Assembly: GCA_021325275.1 (NCBI GenBank) | Contig: JAJPHL010000047.1 | Coordinates: forward strand, 1 to 64,000 | Origin: Terriglobia bacterium | Lineage (GTDB): Bacteria; Acidobacteriota; Terriglobia; JAJPHL01 | Direction: 5' to 3' | DNA: 64,000 nt | Part shown: positions 1,571 to 10,054 of the stretch, piece after piece | Layout of the letters: each line of letters opens with the position of its first letter | Position numbering within the stretch: position 1 is the stretch's first letter | Made by a program: the position numbers and the translations under genes | The notes under the pieces: model-generated | Seen by the model: the letters and a program-made list of their open reading frames with translations, nothing else | Databases searched by the model: none | Told to the model about the DNA's origin: nothing

Positions 1571-4500
1571 TTAGTAAGGCGTGAACAACTGCTGGAATCC
1601 GGTGTTTTCCACGTCGCGCAAGCGCGGTGTGCCGGGCGGTAGCAGTGCGATCGTCTGGAAATCGGTATCGAATGCGTAGGTGCGCGTCGGCGCGCCGTAC
1701 ACATCGCTGCAGCAGACGGCCGGCTTGTAGGAGCTGGTGAAGTACTCGCCGTAGAACAGGCTGACCATCGAGCCGTCGTAATAGACGCTGGCGTTATTCC
1801 AATACTCCAGGAATCGCAGGAAGTTGGACGATCCGCCGTCGGTGCCGAACTCCGGACAATTCACGCCGCCGGCGCCGTTAGGCCCGCAATAGCTGCCGCC
1901 GCCAAGATTGCTGAAGGCTGAATACGTGGCCGTGGGATTCTTGCCTTGCACGATGGCCAGCCGGTAATACGTGGCTTGCGGCGTATCGCGGCCACTGGCG
2001 GTGTTCGGGGAGTTGAAACTGTTCAAGTCGCTCCACTGATTCGAGAGAAGAATCACGGCATCGGCCATCACGGCCGCGCCCACGTGGCAACCCGTGGTTG
2101 CTGTGGAGCACGAAGGATCGCCAAACGATACACTGCTCGAAGCGTTGTATTGACCCAACACGTAGACCGGGTTCTCGCTGGCGACGGTGAATCCGCCGTA
2201 TGTATTGGTGGTGCCGCCCGACGTGACCCGATTGCCAGGCAGGGCGGTTGTTCCTCCGACGAAGCCGCCGTTGACCAGCCGAAGCGCGTGCCGCGCGCCT
2301 GACACCTTATTCTTCCAGGCGACATAGGGACTTGAAGAAGTGGGGCTGCTCGGTCCGCAAACAACCGGCTGGAACGGATCGGGCAAGCCCGTACTGCTGG
2401 TGCTGTCGGTGAATTGAGTCGCGGAAAAGCCTTTGTAGATGTTCGACTGTCCGAAGGTGTCCAGCATGTTGTTTTGGTTGGAATCCTCGCCGGCATCCAG
2501 CACACCGTTCGGGGATCCGTAAGAGCTCGAAGGATTGAAAACGTCCTCGAACCCATAGGCTCCGGTGAGTCGCGAACCGGTTCCCGTGCCGACCGGGAAA
2601 TTCGGTGCGTTGGGGTCAGGGTTCATGCCGCGTCGGTCGCTGAAGTAGAAAATGTAGCCGTTTTGGCTGGTGCTCTCGACAGTGGTTCCGGTGGAACCAC
2701 TCGTAGCCGGCGAATTGCCGATGGTTCCATAGAGCCAGCGCTGCAAATTATATACATTCAACTCCACGATGTTGATGATTCCGTTGATTCCGCAACCTGT
2801 CGAGACGGCATTGGGTTGGTACGCGTAGCTCATCGAGGTGCCGTTGCTGATGGAGAACGAACCGGCTTGTCCCGCGCCTCCCTGGGTTGCTTTGTAGTAG
2901 AAGTTGCTGGAACCCGCCGTGGTTCCGCCGAGTTTGCCGCCCGGACGGGACTCGCCTTCGCGGGTATCGTACATTTGCAACGGATAATACTTGCGCGGAT
3001 CACCGTTGATGTATGCCAGCTTAGTGCCGACAGCCGTCGGTGTTGCGCTGGTGCATCCCGCCGCGGTACTGCCGCTCACGCAATACGTCTGGGTGTAGCC
3101 CGTCGCTGAAAAATTCGGGTTGAACGGCGCACTTGTGCCGGTCGCGGAGCCGGTGAGAGCTGTTTGATTACACGGATTAGGATTCGTGGCCACCCACGAT
3201 GTGCACACGTCCACGTTGCCGTCGCCGTCGATATCGGCGTAGCGCTGGAAACTGAGGATCGCGTTGGCATCCACCACTGTCGAATTCGCGGAATCCACTG
3301 GATCGCTTTGGCCGATGCCATAACCGAGCCATTCCTGCGTTACGTCGGTGTAGCTTCCATCCGATTGCCGCGCCTGAATCAAAATGTAGCCGTCGATCAA
3401 GGGCCAGCACCACGCGTTGTCGCTGACCATGCCGGTTCCGGTGGTATTCGGATAGCTTGTGATGAAATTGCTGCTCAGTAAGATGCAACTGGGACTGGAC
3501 TGTACGGCGTTTCCGGGCAGCACGAAATCTTGCCGCGCGGCGTAGTTGGTTTTGCCGCTGCCGAAGATGCCGTTGCACGCGGTGTTCTGCTTGCCCGACG
3601 GCGTTTTCCAACACTGTGTGCCGCATGTCGCGACGCTGGTTCCCCCGTACGGGTCGGCGCCCTTCACGGTGCTCGGCGTGCAGCCGCTCGTATAGGCGTA
3701 CGCCGCGCCGCTATAAGGAGTGGGTCCCAAACCCGGTTCATAAATACAGCCCGCGGGCCAACTGCCGGTAGTTAGCTGCGCCAGGCAGTTGTTGCTGGCC
3801 GATCCTGCGCTTGCGGCAGGAAGAACGTTGGAGCTGATCTGCGTCATTCCTTCGGCGAACGCCGTACCGCAATAGGTGGCCGGCGTGGTTGTGTTGGACG
3901 TGACGCATGGGCCCGCCGCCGCCGTTCCGCCATAGGTCGGCGCCGTCGTGGTGCCGCCGACGTACGGCGACACGTTGGCGAGGCGCACCGGAGTTCCCGG
4001 CGTCGGGAACGTTCCCGATGCGTTACTATCATTGATCAGCACGCGAATCTGCGAGATCGAGTACAACCGGCTCTGCGTAATGAACGCGCAACCCGACGGC
4101 GGCTGGCCCGTGCATTGCGTCTCTCCTGTCCACGGCTGGCGCAGCAACTCGATCGGACGGTATCCGTCAGTCACGATCGGCAAGTTTAGGCTGTGTACGC
4201 CCGACTTGTAGTTGATGATCATGCTGTTGTACGTGTTGGTCGAGAGATTCACCCAGTTGGGATTGAGCGCGGATCCAATGCCGCCCTCGATGCTGCCTTC
4301 GTCGGTCAACGTCATTGCGCGGCAGGTGGAAGCCGGCAGGGTTCCATCGCAACCAGACGTCGTGGTGGGGATCAGGACGTTTGATCCGTTGTAATAGCCG
4401 CTGCCCGACGAGATCGAGTAACCGTTGGGAAGACCCAGGCGGATCACTTCACCGGCCGTGGTCATCTTGCTGTGGAAGATCAGGTTCCAGGAGTTGTTGA

Positions 4501-5122
4501 GCGTGGCCAAATACAAATTGCTGTTGGTGTGCACGCGTCCCGTCATGTTGTAAAGCGCGCCGGGATAGTAGCTGAGATCGCCGTCGGAGAAGACGCCGAA
4601 CTGGAACACCGGAATCAAAGCCACGTCCACATGGCGGATCATCGAGACGTCCGCGCCCGAGGAAGCCTGCGCGTCGACCGAAAGCGTAATCGGTACGAGC
4701 TCGGCGATCAAGCCGGCGAAGGCGCCCGAAGAGATCGTGGAGTCCGTAATGGTCGGCACGTTGCCCGAGGAAATAAAAGTCAGCGTGTAGGTGTTGTAGG
4801 TGATGCCGGAAATCGAGGGAGGATAGGCGGAGAGTCCGGTGATTTCGCTGGAGGTCGGCGAGGCCTCGCCGGAGTAGAGGCCGTTCAAGTCGCCCATCAT
4901 TTTTTCCATCGCCGCTTCTGCGCCGTAGTAGGCCTGCGTGTCCTGCAAGTCGTTGCCGTTCACGGTGCGCTCGGAGGTGACCATGTAGATGGTGCCCACC
5001 GCGATGCCCGACAACAGCAGCAGCAGGAGCAACGATGTGATCAAGGCAAAACCGCGGCTCTTGCTGAAACGCTTCGCGATGCTTCGCTTGTTCAGCTTGT
5101 TGAAGTTCAACTGTTTCAACAT
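1571..5122 (-). CDS. pilX: Giant PilX-like type IV pilus assembly protein
   Basis: A protein of 1183 residues. Residues 1-90 look like a PilX N-terminus: basic leader, SRG|FALITSLLLLLLLSG prepilin-type site and helix, then a polar helical stretch. The glutamate usual at position +5 of pilins is absent. The remaining ~1090 residues are Gly/Ser/Thr/Asn-rich with many Cys, unlike PilX proteins, which are normally around 200 residues. Two acidic Ca-binding-like loops are visible: DIDGDGNVD near residue 630 and DSNQNNMLD near 879, reminiscent of calcium sites in PilY1-type tip adhesins. It is the last gene of the fimT-pilV-pilW-pilX operon and may combine minor-pilin and tip/adhesin roles (inference). 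The start has a good Shine-Dalgarno site, AAGGAG, seven bases upstream of the ATG. Confidence 0.8.
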   Translation of the reverse strand: MLKQLNFNKLNKRSIAKRFSKSRGFALITSLLLLLLLSGIAVGTIYMVTSERTVNGNDLQDTQAYYGAEAAMEKMMGDLNGLYSGEASPTSSEITGLSAYPPSISGITYNTYTLTFISSGNVPTITDSTISSGAFAGLIAELVPITLSVDAQASSGADVSMIRHVDVALIPVFQFGVFSDGDLSYYPGALYNMTGRVHTNSNLYLATLNNSWNLIFHSKMTTAGEVIRLGLPNGYSISSGSGYYNGSNVLIPTTTSGCDGTLPASTCRAMTLTDEGSIEGGIGSALNPNWVNLSTNTYNSMIINYKSGVHSLNLPIVTDGYRPIELLRQPWTGETQCTGQPPSGCAFITQSRLYSISQIRVLINDSNASGTFPTPGTPVRLANVSPYVGGTTTAPTYGGTAAAGPCVTSNTTTPATYCGTAFAEGMTQISSNVLPAASAGSASNNCLAQLTTGSWPAGCIYEPGLGPTPYSGAAYAYTSGCTPSTVKGADPYGGTSVATCGTQCWKTPSGKQNTACNGIFGSGKTNYAARQDFVLPGNAVQSSPSCILLSSNFITSYPNTTGTGMVSDNAWCWPLIDGYILIQARQSDGSYTDVTQEWLGYGIGQSDPVDSANSTVVDANAILSFQRYADIDGDGNVDVCTSWVATNPNPCNQTALTGSATGTSAPFNPNFSATGYTQTYCVSGSTAAGCTSATPTAVGTKLAYINGDPRKYYPLQMYDTREGESRPGGKLGGTTAGSSNFYYKATQGGAGQAGSFSISNGTSMSYAYQPNAVSTGCGINGIINIVELNVYNLQRWLYGTIGNSPATSGSTGTTVESTSQNGYIFYFSDRRGMNPDPNAPNFPVGTGTGSRLTGAYGFEDVFNPSSSYGSPNGVLDAGEDSNQNNMLDTFGQSNIYKGFSATQFTDSTSSTGLPDPFQPVVCGPSSPTSSSPYVAWKNKVSGARHALRLVNGGFVGGTTALPGNRVTSGGTTNTYGGFTVASENPVYVLGQYNASSSVSFGDPSCSTATTGCHVGAAVMADAVILLSNQWSDLNSFNSPNTASGRDTPQATYYRLAIVQGKNPTATYSAFSNLGGGSYCGPNGAGGVNCPEFGTDGGSSNFLRFLEYWNNASVYYDGSMVSLFYGEYFTSSYKPAVCCSDVYGAPTRTYAFDTDFQTIALLPPGTPRLRDVENTGFQQLFTPY

Positions 5123-5134
5123 AACGAGTCTCCT

Positions 5135-5190
5135 TCGAAAACCCCAGCGCCGCAGGCGCCTTCTAAAAACCCAGCGCCACAGGCGCCCCT
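5135..5190 (-). repeat. Tandem hairpin repeat between pilW and pilX
   Basis: Two near-identical ~24-base units lie head to tail in the 87-base pilW-pilX gap. On the coding strand each reads GGCGCCTGYGGCGCTGGG followed by four or five T. Each unit can fold as a short GC hairpin (GCGCC/GGCGC) followed by a T-run, which could attenuate transcription or stabilise mRNA between the two genes. Function is inferred from shape only. Confidence 0.6.
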
Positions 5191-5209
5191 CTCACTCCTC
5201 CGGCAGATC

Positions 5210-6499
5210 TCAATAGCGGTCCACGAAAACCAAGTTTCTCGGCGACACCGCCGAGATCATGGACACCCGCGAGTAACCGCGACCCACCAACCGCTGGCTG
5301 GCCGCGCGCGCCTGCACGAAAATGTTCACCTTGCTGATCTGGTTCGGCGTGTACGACGTTGTGCCGCCGTTGCACGAACTGGGGGGACTGAATGGGTTCG
5401 CGATGTTCGGGCAGGTGATGCCCGCCGACGAATCGTAGATGTCGTAGCTGAATTGCAGATTCTCGATATTCTGCGCCACCGGCGTTGGCGGCAACGCATT
5501 CACCTGGCGCATCAGGCGCGGGTAGGAATACGTGTAGTTGTCGATGTAATACGTCACCACGATGACGCGAAATACTTTGGTCGAGGGAAACGTCCCTAGG
5601 GCCATCGCCGGGCTTACGGTCTTATCGAAGTTTTGGATGGACGATATGCCGCCGGCGACACCGGAGGTCTGTTGGCCCACCGGGAACAATGTGCTGTTGA
5701 AATTCAGCGGATCGCCCGCGGTGTTCAGGTCCACCACGAAGCCGCCCGATTCGACCGTCGTCACGGTGCCCACCGCGCTTCCATTTGTATTGTTGAAGAA
5801 CAGCACGTCGCCCACGTTTAATCCATACGCCGAATCGTTGGGCGCGGGATTGGTGGAGGGATCGAACGTCACTTTGATCGGCGTGCCCGAAATGTCGACG
5901 GTGGCCGCAACCTGGTCGAGCGAACTGGCCGTGGAGCCGTTCCACGACGAAGGATAATTGTTATCTTTGTAGACGATGGTCACTACGTCGGTCGGGACGA
6001 TGGTGGATGTCCAAGGATCGCGGTCCACGGAGCCGCTGGTCGACGCGTTCGGCTGCGACACCTGGGCGCCTTGCCCGTCTTGCGGATTGACCCAGTAAAG
6101 CCAAGAATTGGACGTTCCGCTTTGATAGTAGTTCAACGCCGAGGCGCCGCCCGGCGCGACGCCGCCGACATTCACCCAGCAGGGCAGCGACGAGGTCACG
6201 TCGCATCCCAGCTGCGGATAGGGCGGTTCCCCCAGCGGATGCGGCAATTGCAAGCCGCCGTTGGGCAATCCCGTGCCGGCCACCAGCAGATCGCGATAAA
6301 TCAAATTGATCGCCACGCGCGCGTTCTGCTGCATGTCGCCGCGCAGCGTCGCGATAGTGCTCACGTCCACGCTCTGTCCGAACATCCAGACGGCTCCCGC
6401 AAGGAGGATGCCGGAGATCGCCGTGGCCACCAGCACTTCGGCCATGGTGTATCCAGCTTGCCTGGAAAGCTTTCGAGCGTGATGTTTGGGTGTGATCAT
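5210..6499 (-). CDS. pilW: PilW-like minor pilin / prepilin-type protein
   Basis: A 429-residue protein with a class III prepilin signal: basic leader, cleavage at QAG|YTMAEVLVA, glutamate at +5, and a hydrophobic helix (ISGILLAGAVWMFGQ). Tyr rather than Phe follows the cleavage site. The segment after the helix (RGDMQQNARVAINLIYRDL) matches the PilW pattern of an N-terminal alpha-helix leading into a beta-rich globular domain. In known pili, PilW-family minor pilins join FimT/PilV/PilX in a tip-priming complex after cleavage by PilD. It lies in an operon between pilV (7 bases upstream) and pilX. It is longer than typical PilW (~270-350 residues), with a Gly/Ser-rich insertion. Confidence 0.85.
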   Translation of the reverse strand: MITPKHHARKLSRQAGYTMAEVLVATAISGILLAGAVWMFGQSVDVSTIATLRGDMQQNARVAINLIYRDLLVAGTGLPNGGLQLPHPLGEPPYPQLGCDVTSSLPCWVNVGGVAPGGASALNYYQSGTSNSWLYWVNPQDGQGAQVSQPNASTSGSVDRDPWTSTIVPTDVVTIVYKDNNYPSSWNGSTASSLDQVAATVDISGTPIKVTFDPSTNPAPNDSAYGLNVGDVLFFNNTNGSAVGTVTTVESGGFVVDLNTAGDPLNFNSTLFPVGQQTSGVAGGISSIQNFDKTVSPAMALGTFPSTKVFRVIVVTYYIDNYTYSYPRLMRQVNALPPTPVAQNIENLQFSYDIYDSSAGITCPNIANPFSPPSSCNGGTTSYTPNQISKVNIFVQARAASQRLVGRGYSRVSMISAVSPRNLVFVDRY

Positions 6500-6506
6500 G
6501 GGACGC

Positions 6507-7070
6507 CTACCTAAACCTCGAAATCAGCGTGTTGATCGTGTAACTGCGCGTGTGTCCCTTGGTGTTGGTGTACTGCACCGTCACTTGCAATTGCCGCACG
6601 TCGGGATTGATCGTTGCGCCGCTGGGCAGCGAGGTGATCGTGATCTGCCGCTGATAGTTCGACAACGTGATCGTTTGGTCGTCGGCCGTTCCCAGCACGC
6701 CGTCGGGTCCGGGCAACACCATGGTCTCGGTGGGGCCGTCGTCGGCCGTGCCGATCAGGCCGTCGGAGCCGGGCAATCCCAGCGACTGAAAGCCGGTGAC
6801 GAAAATGCCGTTGGCCGTATTGTTGTTGTTGATGTTGCTGAAATTGATTTGAGCGCTCTCCCGCGCCGTGAAGATCGCTTCCACGGCCTCGCGCGCCTTC
6901 TGCTTGCAGATCAAATCTTCCTGCGAACTGCTGATGTTGTCGATGGCGGTGCTGAACAGCGCCAACATGCTGACCAAACCGACTGACAGAATGAACATCG
7001 CGGTCATCACTTCGGCCAGCGAGAAACCGGCTTCGGGTTTGGTCTTCGTGCGGATGTTGGCGTTGTTCAT
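6507..7070 (-). CDS. pilV: PilV-like minor pilin
   Basis: A 187-residue prepilin: leader MNNANIRTKTKPEAG, cleavage before FSLAEVMTAMFILSVG, Glu at +5, then a hydrophobic helix and a small C-terminal domain. The pattern fits PilV/GspI-type minor pilins. A longer reading frame runs upstream, but it would overlap fimT and lacks a plausible start. Two close ATGs exist (7076 and 7070). The Shine-Dalgarno GAGG abuts the first but sits six bases before the second, so 7070 was chosen. The gene begins 8 bases after the fimT stop, indicating cotranscription. The middle has two repeats of the type GxDGxxGTADD (LPGSDGLIGTADD, LPGPDGVLGTADD), possibly metal-binding turns. Confidence 0.85.
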   Translation of the reverse strand: MNNANIRTKTKPEAGFSLAEVMTAMFILSVGLVSMLALFSTAIDNISSSQEDLICKQKAREAVEAIFTARESAQINFSNINNNNTANGIFVTGFQSLGLPGSDGLIGTADDGPTETMVLPGPDGVLGTADDQTITLSNYQRQITITSLPSGATINPDVRQLQVTVQYTNTKGHTRSYTINTLISRFR

Positions 7071-7078
7071 GGGCATCC

Positions 7079-7717
7079 TCACTTCCAATAATAGCCGTTG
7101 GGACCGTTGAATAACTTGTAGAGCGTGATTCGTCCCGTGCTTCCCCAAACCGTGACGCTGCGTTGCGAGGCCATGTCGCCCGAGATCGCCGTGTAGACCA
7201 CGCCGTTGCACAATTTCCCGTTGGCGTCGCGGCCCGCGCCGTCGGGTTGGAAATAAATTTGCGTCCCGGCATTGAAATCGACGGCTTGCGTGGGACACGT
7301 GCAGGGCGGCACGGCGCAACTGCAAAAGCCGTCTTGATCCTGCGGCGTTCCGCTCAAAATCTGGAAGGAAACTTGGCCCGGGATCGAGTCATTGCTGACG
7401 TTCGTGATGGTCGTCACCGTGGTGGCGACTCCACTCACGTAGCTCGTGGTACTCAGCAATTGATCGAGCACGATGCCCGAGGGCGCGTTGAACGTGAGGC
7501 GATAAACCAAGCGCTTACTGATCGCGTCTTGCCGCGCTACACGCATTTCCTGCTGAATCAACTGCGCGGCCGAATCGGCGGCCGCCAATTTCAGACTGCT
7601 CAATACGTTAATGATCGCCGCCGCGCTGACGATCAGCGCGATGGCGACCACGACGAGCACTTCGAGCAGGGACACACCTTTTTCGCGGTCCTGACCGTAT
7701 TGTGCACTTCTTTTCAT
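7079..7717 (-). CDS. fimT: FimT/GspH-like pseudopilin
   Basis: A 212-residue protein beginning with a prepilin signal: leader MKRSAQYGQDREKG, cleavage before VSLLEVLVVVAIALIVSAAA, glutamate at +5. The helix is followed by RVARQDAISKR, a segment typical of GspH/FimT, which minor-pilin complexes use for pilus initiation (and FimT for DNA binding in some species). A short Cys-rich insert (CSCAVPPCTC, near residue 133) is unusual and could form disulfides or bind metal. It is the first gene of the pilin operon; the start was taken because the upstream ATG is followed at once by a stop. Confidence 0.8.
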   Translation of the reverse strand: MKRSAQYGQDREKGVSLLEVLVVVAIALIVSAAAIINVLSSLKLAAADSAAQLIQQEMRVARQDAISKRLVYRLTFNAPSGIVLDQLLSTTSYVSGVATTVTTITNVSNDSIPGQVSFQILSGTPQDQDGFCSCAVPPCTCPTQAVDFNAGTQIYFQPDGAGRDANGKLCNGVVYTAISGDMASQRSVTVWGSTGRITLYKLFNGPNGYYWK

Positions 7718-7852: not shown

Positions 7853-8341
7853 TTACGCGCCCTTTGCTAGTTCGCGCCCGGCGGCCGAAACTTGGCGTTC
7901 CAATTCGGCTGTGTCGGCCCCGATCAGGGTGTCGGCGCCGAAGTCCAAGGCGAGCTGACAGACGTTCTCGACTTGCGGGCAAAGCCGGGCTTCGATGTGC
8001 TCGACTTGAGGCAGCAGCAAGCGCGCGACGGCGACATGCTTCAGGTAGGTGTGGCCGGACATCACCGGATCCAGCGGCGGTTCAAAACGCTCGGCGGCCG
8101 GCGCGTGCAGAAGATCGTTGATGCGCTGCGCGCGATCGGCGTCCGTCATCGGCACGGCTTGCAAATCTTGGCGGATATACGCCCGACGCCCGTGGCGTTT
8201 CTCGCGGACCGAATTGGCAAGCTGCGCGATTCCCAAGAGGTCGTGCGAGCGGTAGATGGTTTGCGCGTCAGCCGAGTCGAGGGCGTGTCCCGCTGCAATT
8301 TTCGCGGAGATACTCGCCAAGCGGGAATCTTCGAAAGTCAT
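7853..8341 (-). CDS. MqnE/MqnC-like protein lacking the radical-SAM core
   Basis: A 162-residue protein. Residues 1-54 match the start of futalosine-pathway radical-SAM enzymes such as aminofutalosine synthase MqnE (MTFEDSRLASISAKI, then YRSHDLLGIAQLANSVREK). Residues 85-162 match their C-terminal end (YLKHVAVARLLLP, LALDFGADTLIG, a final alpha-helix). The ~230-residue middle of a normal enzyme, including the CxxxCxxC iron-sulfur motif and the SAM-binding barrel, is absent, and only ~30 linker residues join the two ends. It cannot be a catalytic radical-SAM enzyme. It directly follows a UbiA/MqnP prenyltransferase gene with a 9-base gap, so the menaquinone context is kept. It may be a decayed paralogue after internal deletion or a non-catalytic partner. 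The reading frame is intact. Confidence 0.7.
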   Translation of the reverse strand: MTFEDSRLASISAKIAAGHALDSADAQTIYRSHDLLGIAQLANSVREKRHGRRAYIRQDLQAVPMTDADRAQRINDLLHAPAAERFEPPLDPVMSGHTYLKHVAVARLLLPQVEHIEARLCPQVENVCQLALDFGADTLIGADTAELERQVSAAGRELAKGA

Positions 8342-8350
8342 GGAGGGAAT

Positions 8351-9220
8351 TTAGCGGCGCCAAAAAATATCCGCGGACCAAAATGCGAAAAATAACAAAC
8401 TGATCCACGCATTCACGTTGAAAAACGCCGGACTCACGCGCGACAAATCACCCGGCTTCACGAGACTGTGCTCGTAGATCAAAAGCGCGGCGACAATCGC
8501 CAGTCCCAGCGCGGCAATCCAGCCGAGATGAAAGTGCAGCGCCAGCGCGGCGAGCGGAATCATCATGACCGCGTGCATCGCGGTAGAAATCCCCAGCGCG
8601 CGTGGCACGCCCCAGCGATTGGGTATGGAGTACAGCCCCGTGGAGCGGTCGAAGTCGACGTCTTGACACGCATAAATGATGTCGAAGCCCGCGGTCCACA
8701 GCATCACGGCGGCGGTCAACAGCAAGATGGCAGGATCGAGCGATCCCCGCACCGCGATCCACGCGGCGGCGGGCGCGATTCCCAGGCTCAATCCCAGCAC
8801 CAAGTGCGACCATGCGGTGAATCGTTTGGTGTAGGAATAAAAACAAACGATCCCCAGCGCCACCGGCGAGAGCATCAGGCAAAGCGGATTCAATTGCCAC
8901 GCGGCGATGGCGAGCACCGCGGCGGAAACTGCGGCGAACGCCGCGACGAAAGCGGGCGTGAGCAATCCCGCGGGAATCGCGCGCGTGCGGGTGCGCGGAT
9001 TCGCGGCGTCCCAGCGCGCGTCGATCAAGCGATTGAACGCCATGGCGCAAGAGCGCGCGCCAACCATCGCCACGACGATCCAAAGAATCTGCCGCCCGCT
9101 CGGCCATCCTTGTGCGGCGAGCACGGCGCCGGTGAGCGCAAACGGCAGCGCGAACACGGAGTGCTCGAACTTGATCATTTCGAGCGTCACGCTCAGATTG
9201 TGGAAGAAGCGTCGGAACAT
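8351..9220 (-). CDS. mqnP: UbiA-family prenyltransferase, probably MqnP
   Basis: A 289-residue membrane protein with about eight hydrophobic helices. Both aspartate-rich motifs that bind Mg-diphosphate are present: NRLIDARWD (N63, D67, D71) and CQDVDFD (D187, D189, D191) followed by STGLYSIP. The family attaches a polyprenyl chain to an aromatic acid in quinone synthesis. The neighbouring MqnE-like gene favours the futalosine menaquinone route (MqnP) over ubiquinone UbiA, but this is context-based. The start at 9220 (MFRRFFHNL) gives the normal family length; the frame continues upstream into antisense of larB and is not used. The start lies 27 bases from the divergent larB start. Confidence 0.85.
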
Positions 9221-9247
9221 GCGCACTTCATATTGTAATCTGAATGT

Positions 9248-10054
9248 GTGACCGAAAAATCCATCCGTGACCTGCTGGGCGAAGTTCGCAACGGGAAGCT
9301 GGGTGTCGACGCGGCTGTCGAGCGATTGCGCCATCTTCCTTTCGAGGATCTCGACTACGCGAAGATCGATCATCATCGCGGCTTGCGTCAGGGAATGCCG
9401 GAAGTGATTCTCGGCTCCGGCAAGCGTCCCGAGCAAGTGGCGGGGATCGTCAAGCGGATGCTGCCGCACTCCACGAACATTTTGATCACGCGCGCCGACG
9501 CGGCGGCTTTCCAGCAAGTGCGCAAGCTCGAAAAGCGCGCGGAATACCACGAGCTATCGCGCGCCATCACCATTCATCGCGACCACACAACGCTCGGCGC
9601 GGGACGCATCGCCGTGGTGGCGGCGGGCACGTCCGATATTCCCGTGGCCGAAGAAGCGGTGGTGACGGCGCGTATCATGGGCAACGACGTGGAGCATCTC
9701 TACGACGTCGGCGTCGCGGGAATCCATCGGCTGATGAGCAATCGCGCGGTGCTGACCAACGCGCGCGTGCTGATCGTGGTCGCGGGCATGGAAGGCGCGT
9801 TGCCCAGCGTTGTCGGAGGACTGGTCGCCGTGCCGGTGATCGCCGTCCCGACGTCGGTCGGCTACGGCGCGAGTTTCAACGGACTCGCCGCGCTGTTGGG
9901 AATGCTGAATAGTTGCGCCTCGAACGTGGTGGTGGTGAACATCGATAACGGGTTTGGCGCGGGGTTTGCGGCGAGTTTGATGAATCGCGTTTGCCACGAG
10001 GGTGAACGCCCAAATCAAAAATCAAAGATCAAAAATCAAAAATCAAAAATGTGA
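9248..10054 (+). CDS. larB: LarB, nickel-pincer cofactor biosynthesis carboxylase/hydrolase
   Basis: A 268-residue protein of the LarB (PurE-like) family. Conserved blocks are [34 protein letters not shown] and [10 protein letters not shown]. LarB carboxylates nicotinic acid adenine dinucleotide at C5 and splits its phosphoanhydride, the first step to the nickel-pincer nucleotide used by lactate racemase-type enzymes. LarC, LarE and LarA are not in the window. The start is GTG at 9248. The last ~14 residues ([13 protein letters not shown]) are encoded by the left arm of a heptamer inverted repeat and are probably not part of the conserved fold. The TGA stop is the first triplet of the hairpin loop. 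Confidence 0.93.

Follow-up and report, generated by a model that had tools for sequence, protein, structure and literature searches.

A core-less MqnE homologue beside mqnP in Terriglobia and Bacillota, a candidate pseudoenzyme of menaquinone synthesis

In the 64,000-nucleotide stretch of a Terriglobia bacterium contig analysed here (JAJPHL010000047.1, the window), a short gene following mqnP was found to encode the two ends of an MqnE-type enzyme, joined without the radical-SAM core that normally lies between them. Comparable short forms occur in other Terriglobia and in Bacillota, and the short MqnE is very probably a selected pseudoenzyme. Its working as a partner or scaffold is proposed tentatively, at a little under even odds. 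The reading as a whole, in which a native mqnE had its core excised and selection then retained the product as a pseudoenzyme that assists the synthesis of menaquinone (vitamin K) without catalysis, as a partner or scaffold, is assigned a probability of about 0.5.

Anatomy and surroundings of the short gene

Searches with TIGR03700, the NCBIfam model for MqnE, gave a two-piece match to the window protein, in which residues 11-58 correspond to profile positions 1-48 and a C-terminal piece corresponds to positions 255-318; the score was 52.6 bits, which does not reach the curated cut-off of 434.55. In place of profile positions 49-254 (about 206) stands a linker of some 35 residues, and no Radical_SAM Pfam match was found in the protein. 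The preliminary description had reported both ends of an MqnE/MqnC-type enzyme joined with the radical-SAM middle gone, which these matches bear out, although its estimate of about 230 missing residues was somewhat too high. In the alignment to full-length MqnE and MqnC that it had called for, the core was absent from the window protein, together with the CX3CX2C [4Fe-4S] motif and the GGGAE motif, and a second deletion near the C terminus was seen to have removed the VVEEKI..AG loop. As judged from its sequence, the protein is unable to bind a [4Fe-4S] cluster or SAM, and because these sites are missing, aminofutalosine synthase activity is excluded by inference.

The N-terminal half shows 40-53% identity to MqnEs of the class, with E-values down to 4e-13, which excludes a chance match. 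The best match to the MqnC model (42 bits) lies in the C-terminal part, and the match there to PF19288, the CofH/MqnC C-terminal region, scored 21 bits (E 3e-4), below a gathering cut-off of 27 bits that is passed by relatives (67.1 bits for L177, 37.2 for L038 and 52.5 for L091). The frame had been described as clean, and it is indeed open over its full length with gene-like codon usage, its GC3 of 0.75 being the same as that of neighbouring genes. Both ends are homologous to MqnE and the slot after mqnP is conserved across relatives, which shows common descent with mqnE. Compared with MqnE from Pedobacter heparinus (PDB 6xi9/6xig), the window protein retains homologous N-terminal helices, beta-8 module and C-terminal helix as well as the post-mqnP position, but lacks the CX3CX2C motif, the SAM-binding inner barrel strands and the VVEEKI..AG loop. 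With MqnC, the cyclic dehypoxanthinyl futalosine synthase (TIGR03699), it has the C-terminal module in common, but its gene lies in the position of mqnE and its score is higher with the MqnE model; the intact MqnC of the organism is on a contig other than that of the window.

Table 1. Features of the window and of two related loci. Coordinates without a prefix refer to the window
Feature	Coordinates	Strand	Evidence or remark
Core-less MqnE (pseudo-MqnE)	7853..8341	-	162 aa plus stop; two-piece TIGR03700 match
Retained N-terminal helices to barrel strand 1, residues 1-57	8171..8341	-	TIGR03700 1-48; alignment; model
Variable linker in place of radical-SAM core, residues 58-93	8063..8170	-	Alignment; model
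Retained beta-8 module, residues 94-141	7919..8062	-	TIGR03699 252-299 and CofH_C 29-89 matches
C-terminal helix, residues 142-162	7856..7918	-	VVEEKI..AG loop ahead deleted; alignment to full-length MqnE/MqnC
mqnP (UbiA-type prenyltransferase)	8351..9220	-	PF01040 2.5e-54; NCBIfam MqnP model 1.6e-91
larB, divergent, marks conserved mqnP-mqnE slot	9248..10054	+	NF033503 3.2e-87
Core-less MqnC, G180	L090:4997-5479	-	Directly after mqnA
Core-less MqnC, G416	L091:3637-4149	+	Directly after mqnA; L242 is the same sequence

The gene had been said to adjoin mqnP, and the immediately upstream neighbour matches the MqnP model, with the short gene beginning 9 nt past its stop. The longest mqnP frame extends a further 110 codons upstream (window 9221-9550) over the start of the divergent larB, and translation of mqnP probably begins at the ATG at 9220. 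Divergent neighbours of the same kind as larB, named by eye, were seen in L038, L040, L041 and L095. A sigma-70-like promoter was not found between window positions 7600 and 9400. Downstream of the short gene, the minus strand carries a type IV pilin-like cluster (window 1571-7717), named by eye from prepilin-type N-termini.

The genome to which the window belongs (G000) is a 6.86-Mb draft in 75 contigs, 97.6% complete, in which futalosine-pathway genes were sought by profile searches. An intact MqnC (470 bits, above the cut-off) lies beside MqnA on contig 66, and a second PF02621 gene, on contig 15, was taken as MqnD. Neither a full-length MqnE nor fragments of its core were found in the draft by profile search at E up to 0.01; in the one other genome of the same order that was examined, a full MqnE is present. 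The expectation that true MqnE and MqnC would be needed elsewhere in the genome was therefore borne out for MqnC, with full MqnE not found in this draft.

Short forms in two phyla and second full-length copies

Among the matches listed from 399 genomes of the class, three other genomes (G337, G334 and G227) matched both halves of MqnE in short frames, in each case directly after mqnP. A divergent larB lies nearby in G337 and G334, and in G337 the start of the short gene overlaps the mqnP stop. Where a match covered profile positions 31-168 and the frame was about 400 aa long, the gene was counted as full-length. Core-less MqnC genes were found in G180 and G416 (Table 1), both of genus g79, and by alignment the same parts had been removed as in core-less MqnE; nine other g79 genomes encode a normal MqnC, and in G180 the post-mqnP slot is occupied by a full mqnE. 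Short forms are uncommon, family f5 (237 genomes) having at least three genomes with short MqnE and at least two with short MqnC. In a survey of the phylum with a six-sequence profile, none of the matches with E of 1e-24 or lower was a new short form. One candidate, a 174-aa frame on contig C110 of G878, was ruled out as a full-length gene cut by the contig end.

Two irregular genes were also noted. In an Acidobacteriota metagenome-assembled genome, L251:3941-4819 encodes a 292-aa MqnE after mqnP, with the cluster motif destroyed and the core partly missing, which is possibly an intermediate form. In G346, the post-mqnP mqnE (L041:4037-5039) lacks about 54 profile positions and is divided between two overlapping frames, which may reflect an assembly error or early decay.

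A scan of contigs queried with the window protein alone gave no matches, whereas a profile built from four short MqnEs succeeded. Core-less MqnE was found in at least ten Bacillota genomes of Desulfosporosinus and its relatives, the carriers including Desulfosporosinus metallidurans, Desulfosporosinus sp. BG, Paradesulfitobacterium ferrireducens and several metagenome-assembled genomes; Desulfosporosinus sp. Tol-M also encodes one. The usual gene order there is mqnP, short mqnE and mqnC, followed by tat genes and a polyprenyl synthase (named by eye). A single junction, from the region of the first cluster cysteine to TNATM, was common to all five Desulfosporosinus short forms aligned. That the short form might be confined to one assembly, or be a misassembly, is contradicted by the search of related genomes: three further Terriglobia genomes and members of a second phylum carry it at the corresponding locus.

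A second full-length enzyme was found elsewhere in 14 of the 19 genomes with a short form. In G227 and G334 a full MqnE adjoins an mqnA, a full MqnE lies elsewhere in ten Bacillota genomes that encode a short form (two of these being partial genes at contig ends), and G180 and G416, with core-less MqnC, encode a divergent full MqnC-like gene. Second copies in Terriglobia show 45-46% (MqnE) and 35-36% (MqnC) identity to the reference, compared with 60-72% for native copies, and they were therefore probably acquired. No second full enzyme was found in G000, G337, G890, G893 and G894. G337 lacks both mqnA and full mqnE, which are neighbours in its sister G334, so that a single unassembled locus would explain both absences. 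Two full MqnEs were found in G888 (Desulfosporosinus FKB; L250 and L271) and in G898 (L257 and L272), one beside mqnC and the other at a separate locus. Between mqnP and mqnC, Desulfosporosinus FKB carries a full mqnE.

Origins, selection and predicted structure

Tests of origin were carried out on columns shared across sequences, with 15 short MqnEs. A single clade of all 15 was rejected (p-AU 0.00125), whereas the tests did not reject monophyly of the Bacillota short forms (p 0.146) or of those from Acidobacteriota, although long branches meet in these groupings. The Acidobacteriota short forms lie on long, mutually attracting branches, that of the window gene amounting to 2.6 changes per column. 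Taken with the case of MqnC, the origins of short MqnE imply at least three independent excisions.

Estimates of dN/dS and of regional constraint were obtained from genes of relatives, the window gene having no relative close enough. For the short MqnE of G334 and G337, dN/dS was 0.14 (mqnP 0.11), and for the short MqnC it was 0.20 (mqnA 0.07); in both comparisons synonymous sites were close to saturation. The Desulfosporosinus short MqnEs gave 0.17-0.29 against 0.04-0.10 for the neighbouring mqnP and mqnC, and this weaker selection suggests that some of the sequence can drift. Within the Desulfosporosinus short forms, pN/pS was 0.19 (0.11-0.27) for the N-terminal helices and 0.18 (0.10-0.25) for the beta-8 module, the C-terminal section under the strongest constraint in relatives, but 0.45 for alpha-6/beta-7 and 0.53 (0.36-0.70) for the catalytic loop. 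The corresponding values in full second copies were 0.22, 0.09, 0.04 and 0.06. This pattern indicates that in Desulfosporosinus the catalytic constraint has gone, whereas the N-terminal helices and the beta-8 module largely remain constrained.

An AlphaFold2 model of the window protein, computed from an input of six short sequences, had a pLDDT of 87.5 and a pTM of 0.83, with helices at residues 7-16, 23-31 and 35-50, a strand at 53-57, and the lowest inner-residue pLDDT at 61-80, in the linker. With VIA-align, all 162 residues superposed on MqnE 6xig (Z 13.0, rmsd 2.9), followed by biotin synthase, PylB and HydE (Z 11-12); Foldseek alone matched MqnE at E 1.1e-3. For the D. metallidurans short form, the model (pLDDT 83.7, pTM 0.83) was confident apart from two loops, one of which lies within the former catalytic loop. 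In both models the first strand and the last barrel strands are retained, and these would stay neighbours once the inner strands between them are excised. The short protein is thus predicted to be a compact wedge of the MqnE barrel.

Function of the retained protein and alternative explanations

The preliminary description had left open a deletion product kept by chance and a conserved non-catalytic protein, and same-locus short forms in two phyla under purifying selection favour the latter. The retention of this stripped-down kind of protein by unrelated bacteria, in most cases in the corresponding slot, suggests a separate function for what is left of the enzyme without its core. In the route proposed here, the native mqnP-linked mqnE would have lost its radical-SAM core by in-frame excision. 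Redundancy would have come first, a second full MqnE taking over catalysis, and the operon copy would then have lost its core; although this order of events is inferred, genomes with two full MqnEs, such as G888 and G898, are the intermediate expected from such a takeover. The remainder, a small folded barrel wedge with N- and C-terminal helices, would have been kept by selection, and its retained surface could serve as a protein-binding platform, so that it would act, in the manner of a prozyme, as a non-catalytic partner or scaffold for enzymes of the futalosine pathway; the second MqnE, MqnC and membrane-bound MqnP are the likeliest candidates.

The same history could instead have left a decaying relic, the operon copy having lost its core after a second MqnE arrived and its protein doing nothing, with in-frame remnants outlasting others because a frameshift or stop would interfere with the neighbouring genes through coupled translation or transcription. 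The loss of core and catalytic loop, the fast-evolving middle, a dN/dS several times that of neighbouring genes in Desulfosporosinus, the short distance to mqnP (9 nt in the window, an overlap in G337), the position within the operon ahead of mqnC in Bacillota and the half-eroded 292-aa form at L251 all fit such decay. It would account for in-frame survival but not for dN/dS values of 0.14-0.29, which confirm purifying selection on the short forms of relatives and are far from 1, nor for constraint concentrated in two modules; similar boundaries recur in two phyla and also in MqnC, and the models are predicted to fold compactly. A relic is accordingly considered unlikely. Less probable still is a sensor or carrier that binds a pathway intermediate (aminofutalosine or a precursor) or a regulator rather than joining a complex. 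Part of the barrel is kept, and the 6xi9 structure of MqnE has aminofutalosine bound, but alpha-6/beta-7 and the VVEEKI loop, the most conserved regions of the full copies (0.04 and 0.06), are those that have been released, so that a kept ligand pocket is hard to fit.

Two further explanations turn on the draft state of the genomes. Loss of the middle of a full gene during assembly could be imagined in a 75-contig draft, and the G346 gene in two frames may be such an error; the window gene, however, carries two separate excisions and a diverged sequence, no core fragment lies elsewhere in G000, and the same form recurs in many assemblies, including those of named strains (NZ_MLBF01, NZ_JAFLRH01 and NZ_MASS01), leaving an artefact hardly credible. 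Alternatively, the organism may truly lack a full MqnE, the short protein and MqnC (or another enzyme) carrying out the aminofutalosine step in a new way. G000 has MqnA, MqnC and MqnD without a full MqnE having been found; G890 and G893 show the same pattern and G894 has an eroded 292-aa MqnE, the MqnC of these three being presumed from one full-length match each. All four genomes are drafts whose gaps may explain the absences, as in G337, and the MqnC of G000 looks ordinary by its score; such chemistry is regarded as very improbable. A broader version, in which core-less MqnE and MqnC form a recurrent, convergent class of radical-SAM pseudoenzymes and an obligatory subunit of menaquinone synthesis, the short protein and MqnC supporting the aminofutalosine step in the few lineages without full MqnE (the window's included), is likewise thought quite improbable.

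For the preferred reading of a selected non-catalytic partner, the nearest precedent is, by analogy, the prozymes, paralogues that have lost catalysis but activate AdoMetDC and deoxyhypusine synthase in trypanosomatids (PMC5201418, PMC3663545). Prozymes resemble the short MqnE in being homologues without a catalytic motif kept beside an active copy, but they have demonstrated partners and activation, whereas the short MqnE is known here from sequence and models and has had the catalytic core itself excised. No description of core-less MqnE or MqnC was found in the open-licence papers searched.

Pseudoenzymes usually lose point residues; in short MqnE and MqnC the same catalytic wedge of the radical-SAM barrel has been cut out repeatedly, with the rest kept by selection. 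The short forms thereby provide a natural experiment on the role of those regions of MqnE and MqnC that lie outside catalysis, for instance in complex formation or the channelling of intermediates. The futalosine pathway is absent from humans and is discussed as a drug target, e.g. in Helicobacter pylori (PMC7666284). For annotation, a gene named MqnE in the mqnE slot need not be MqnE, so calls of pathway presence that rely on it can be wrong. Named strains carry the short form, which makes its function testable.
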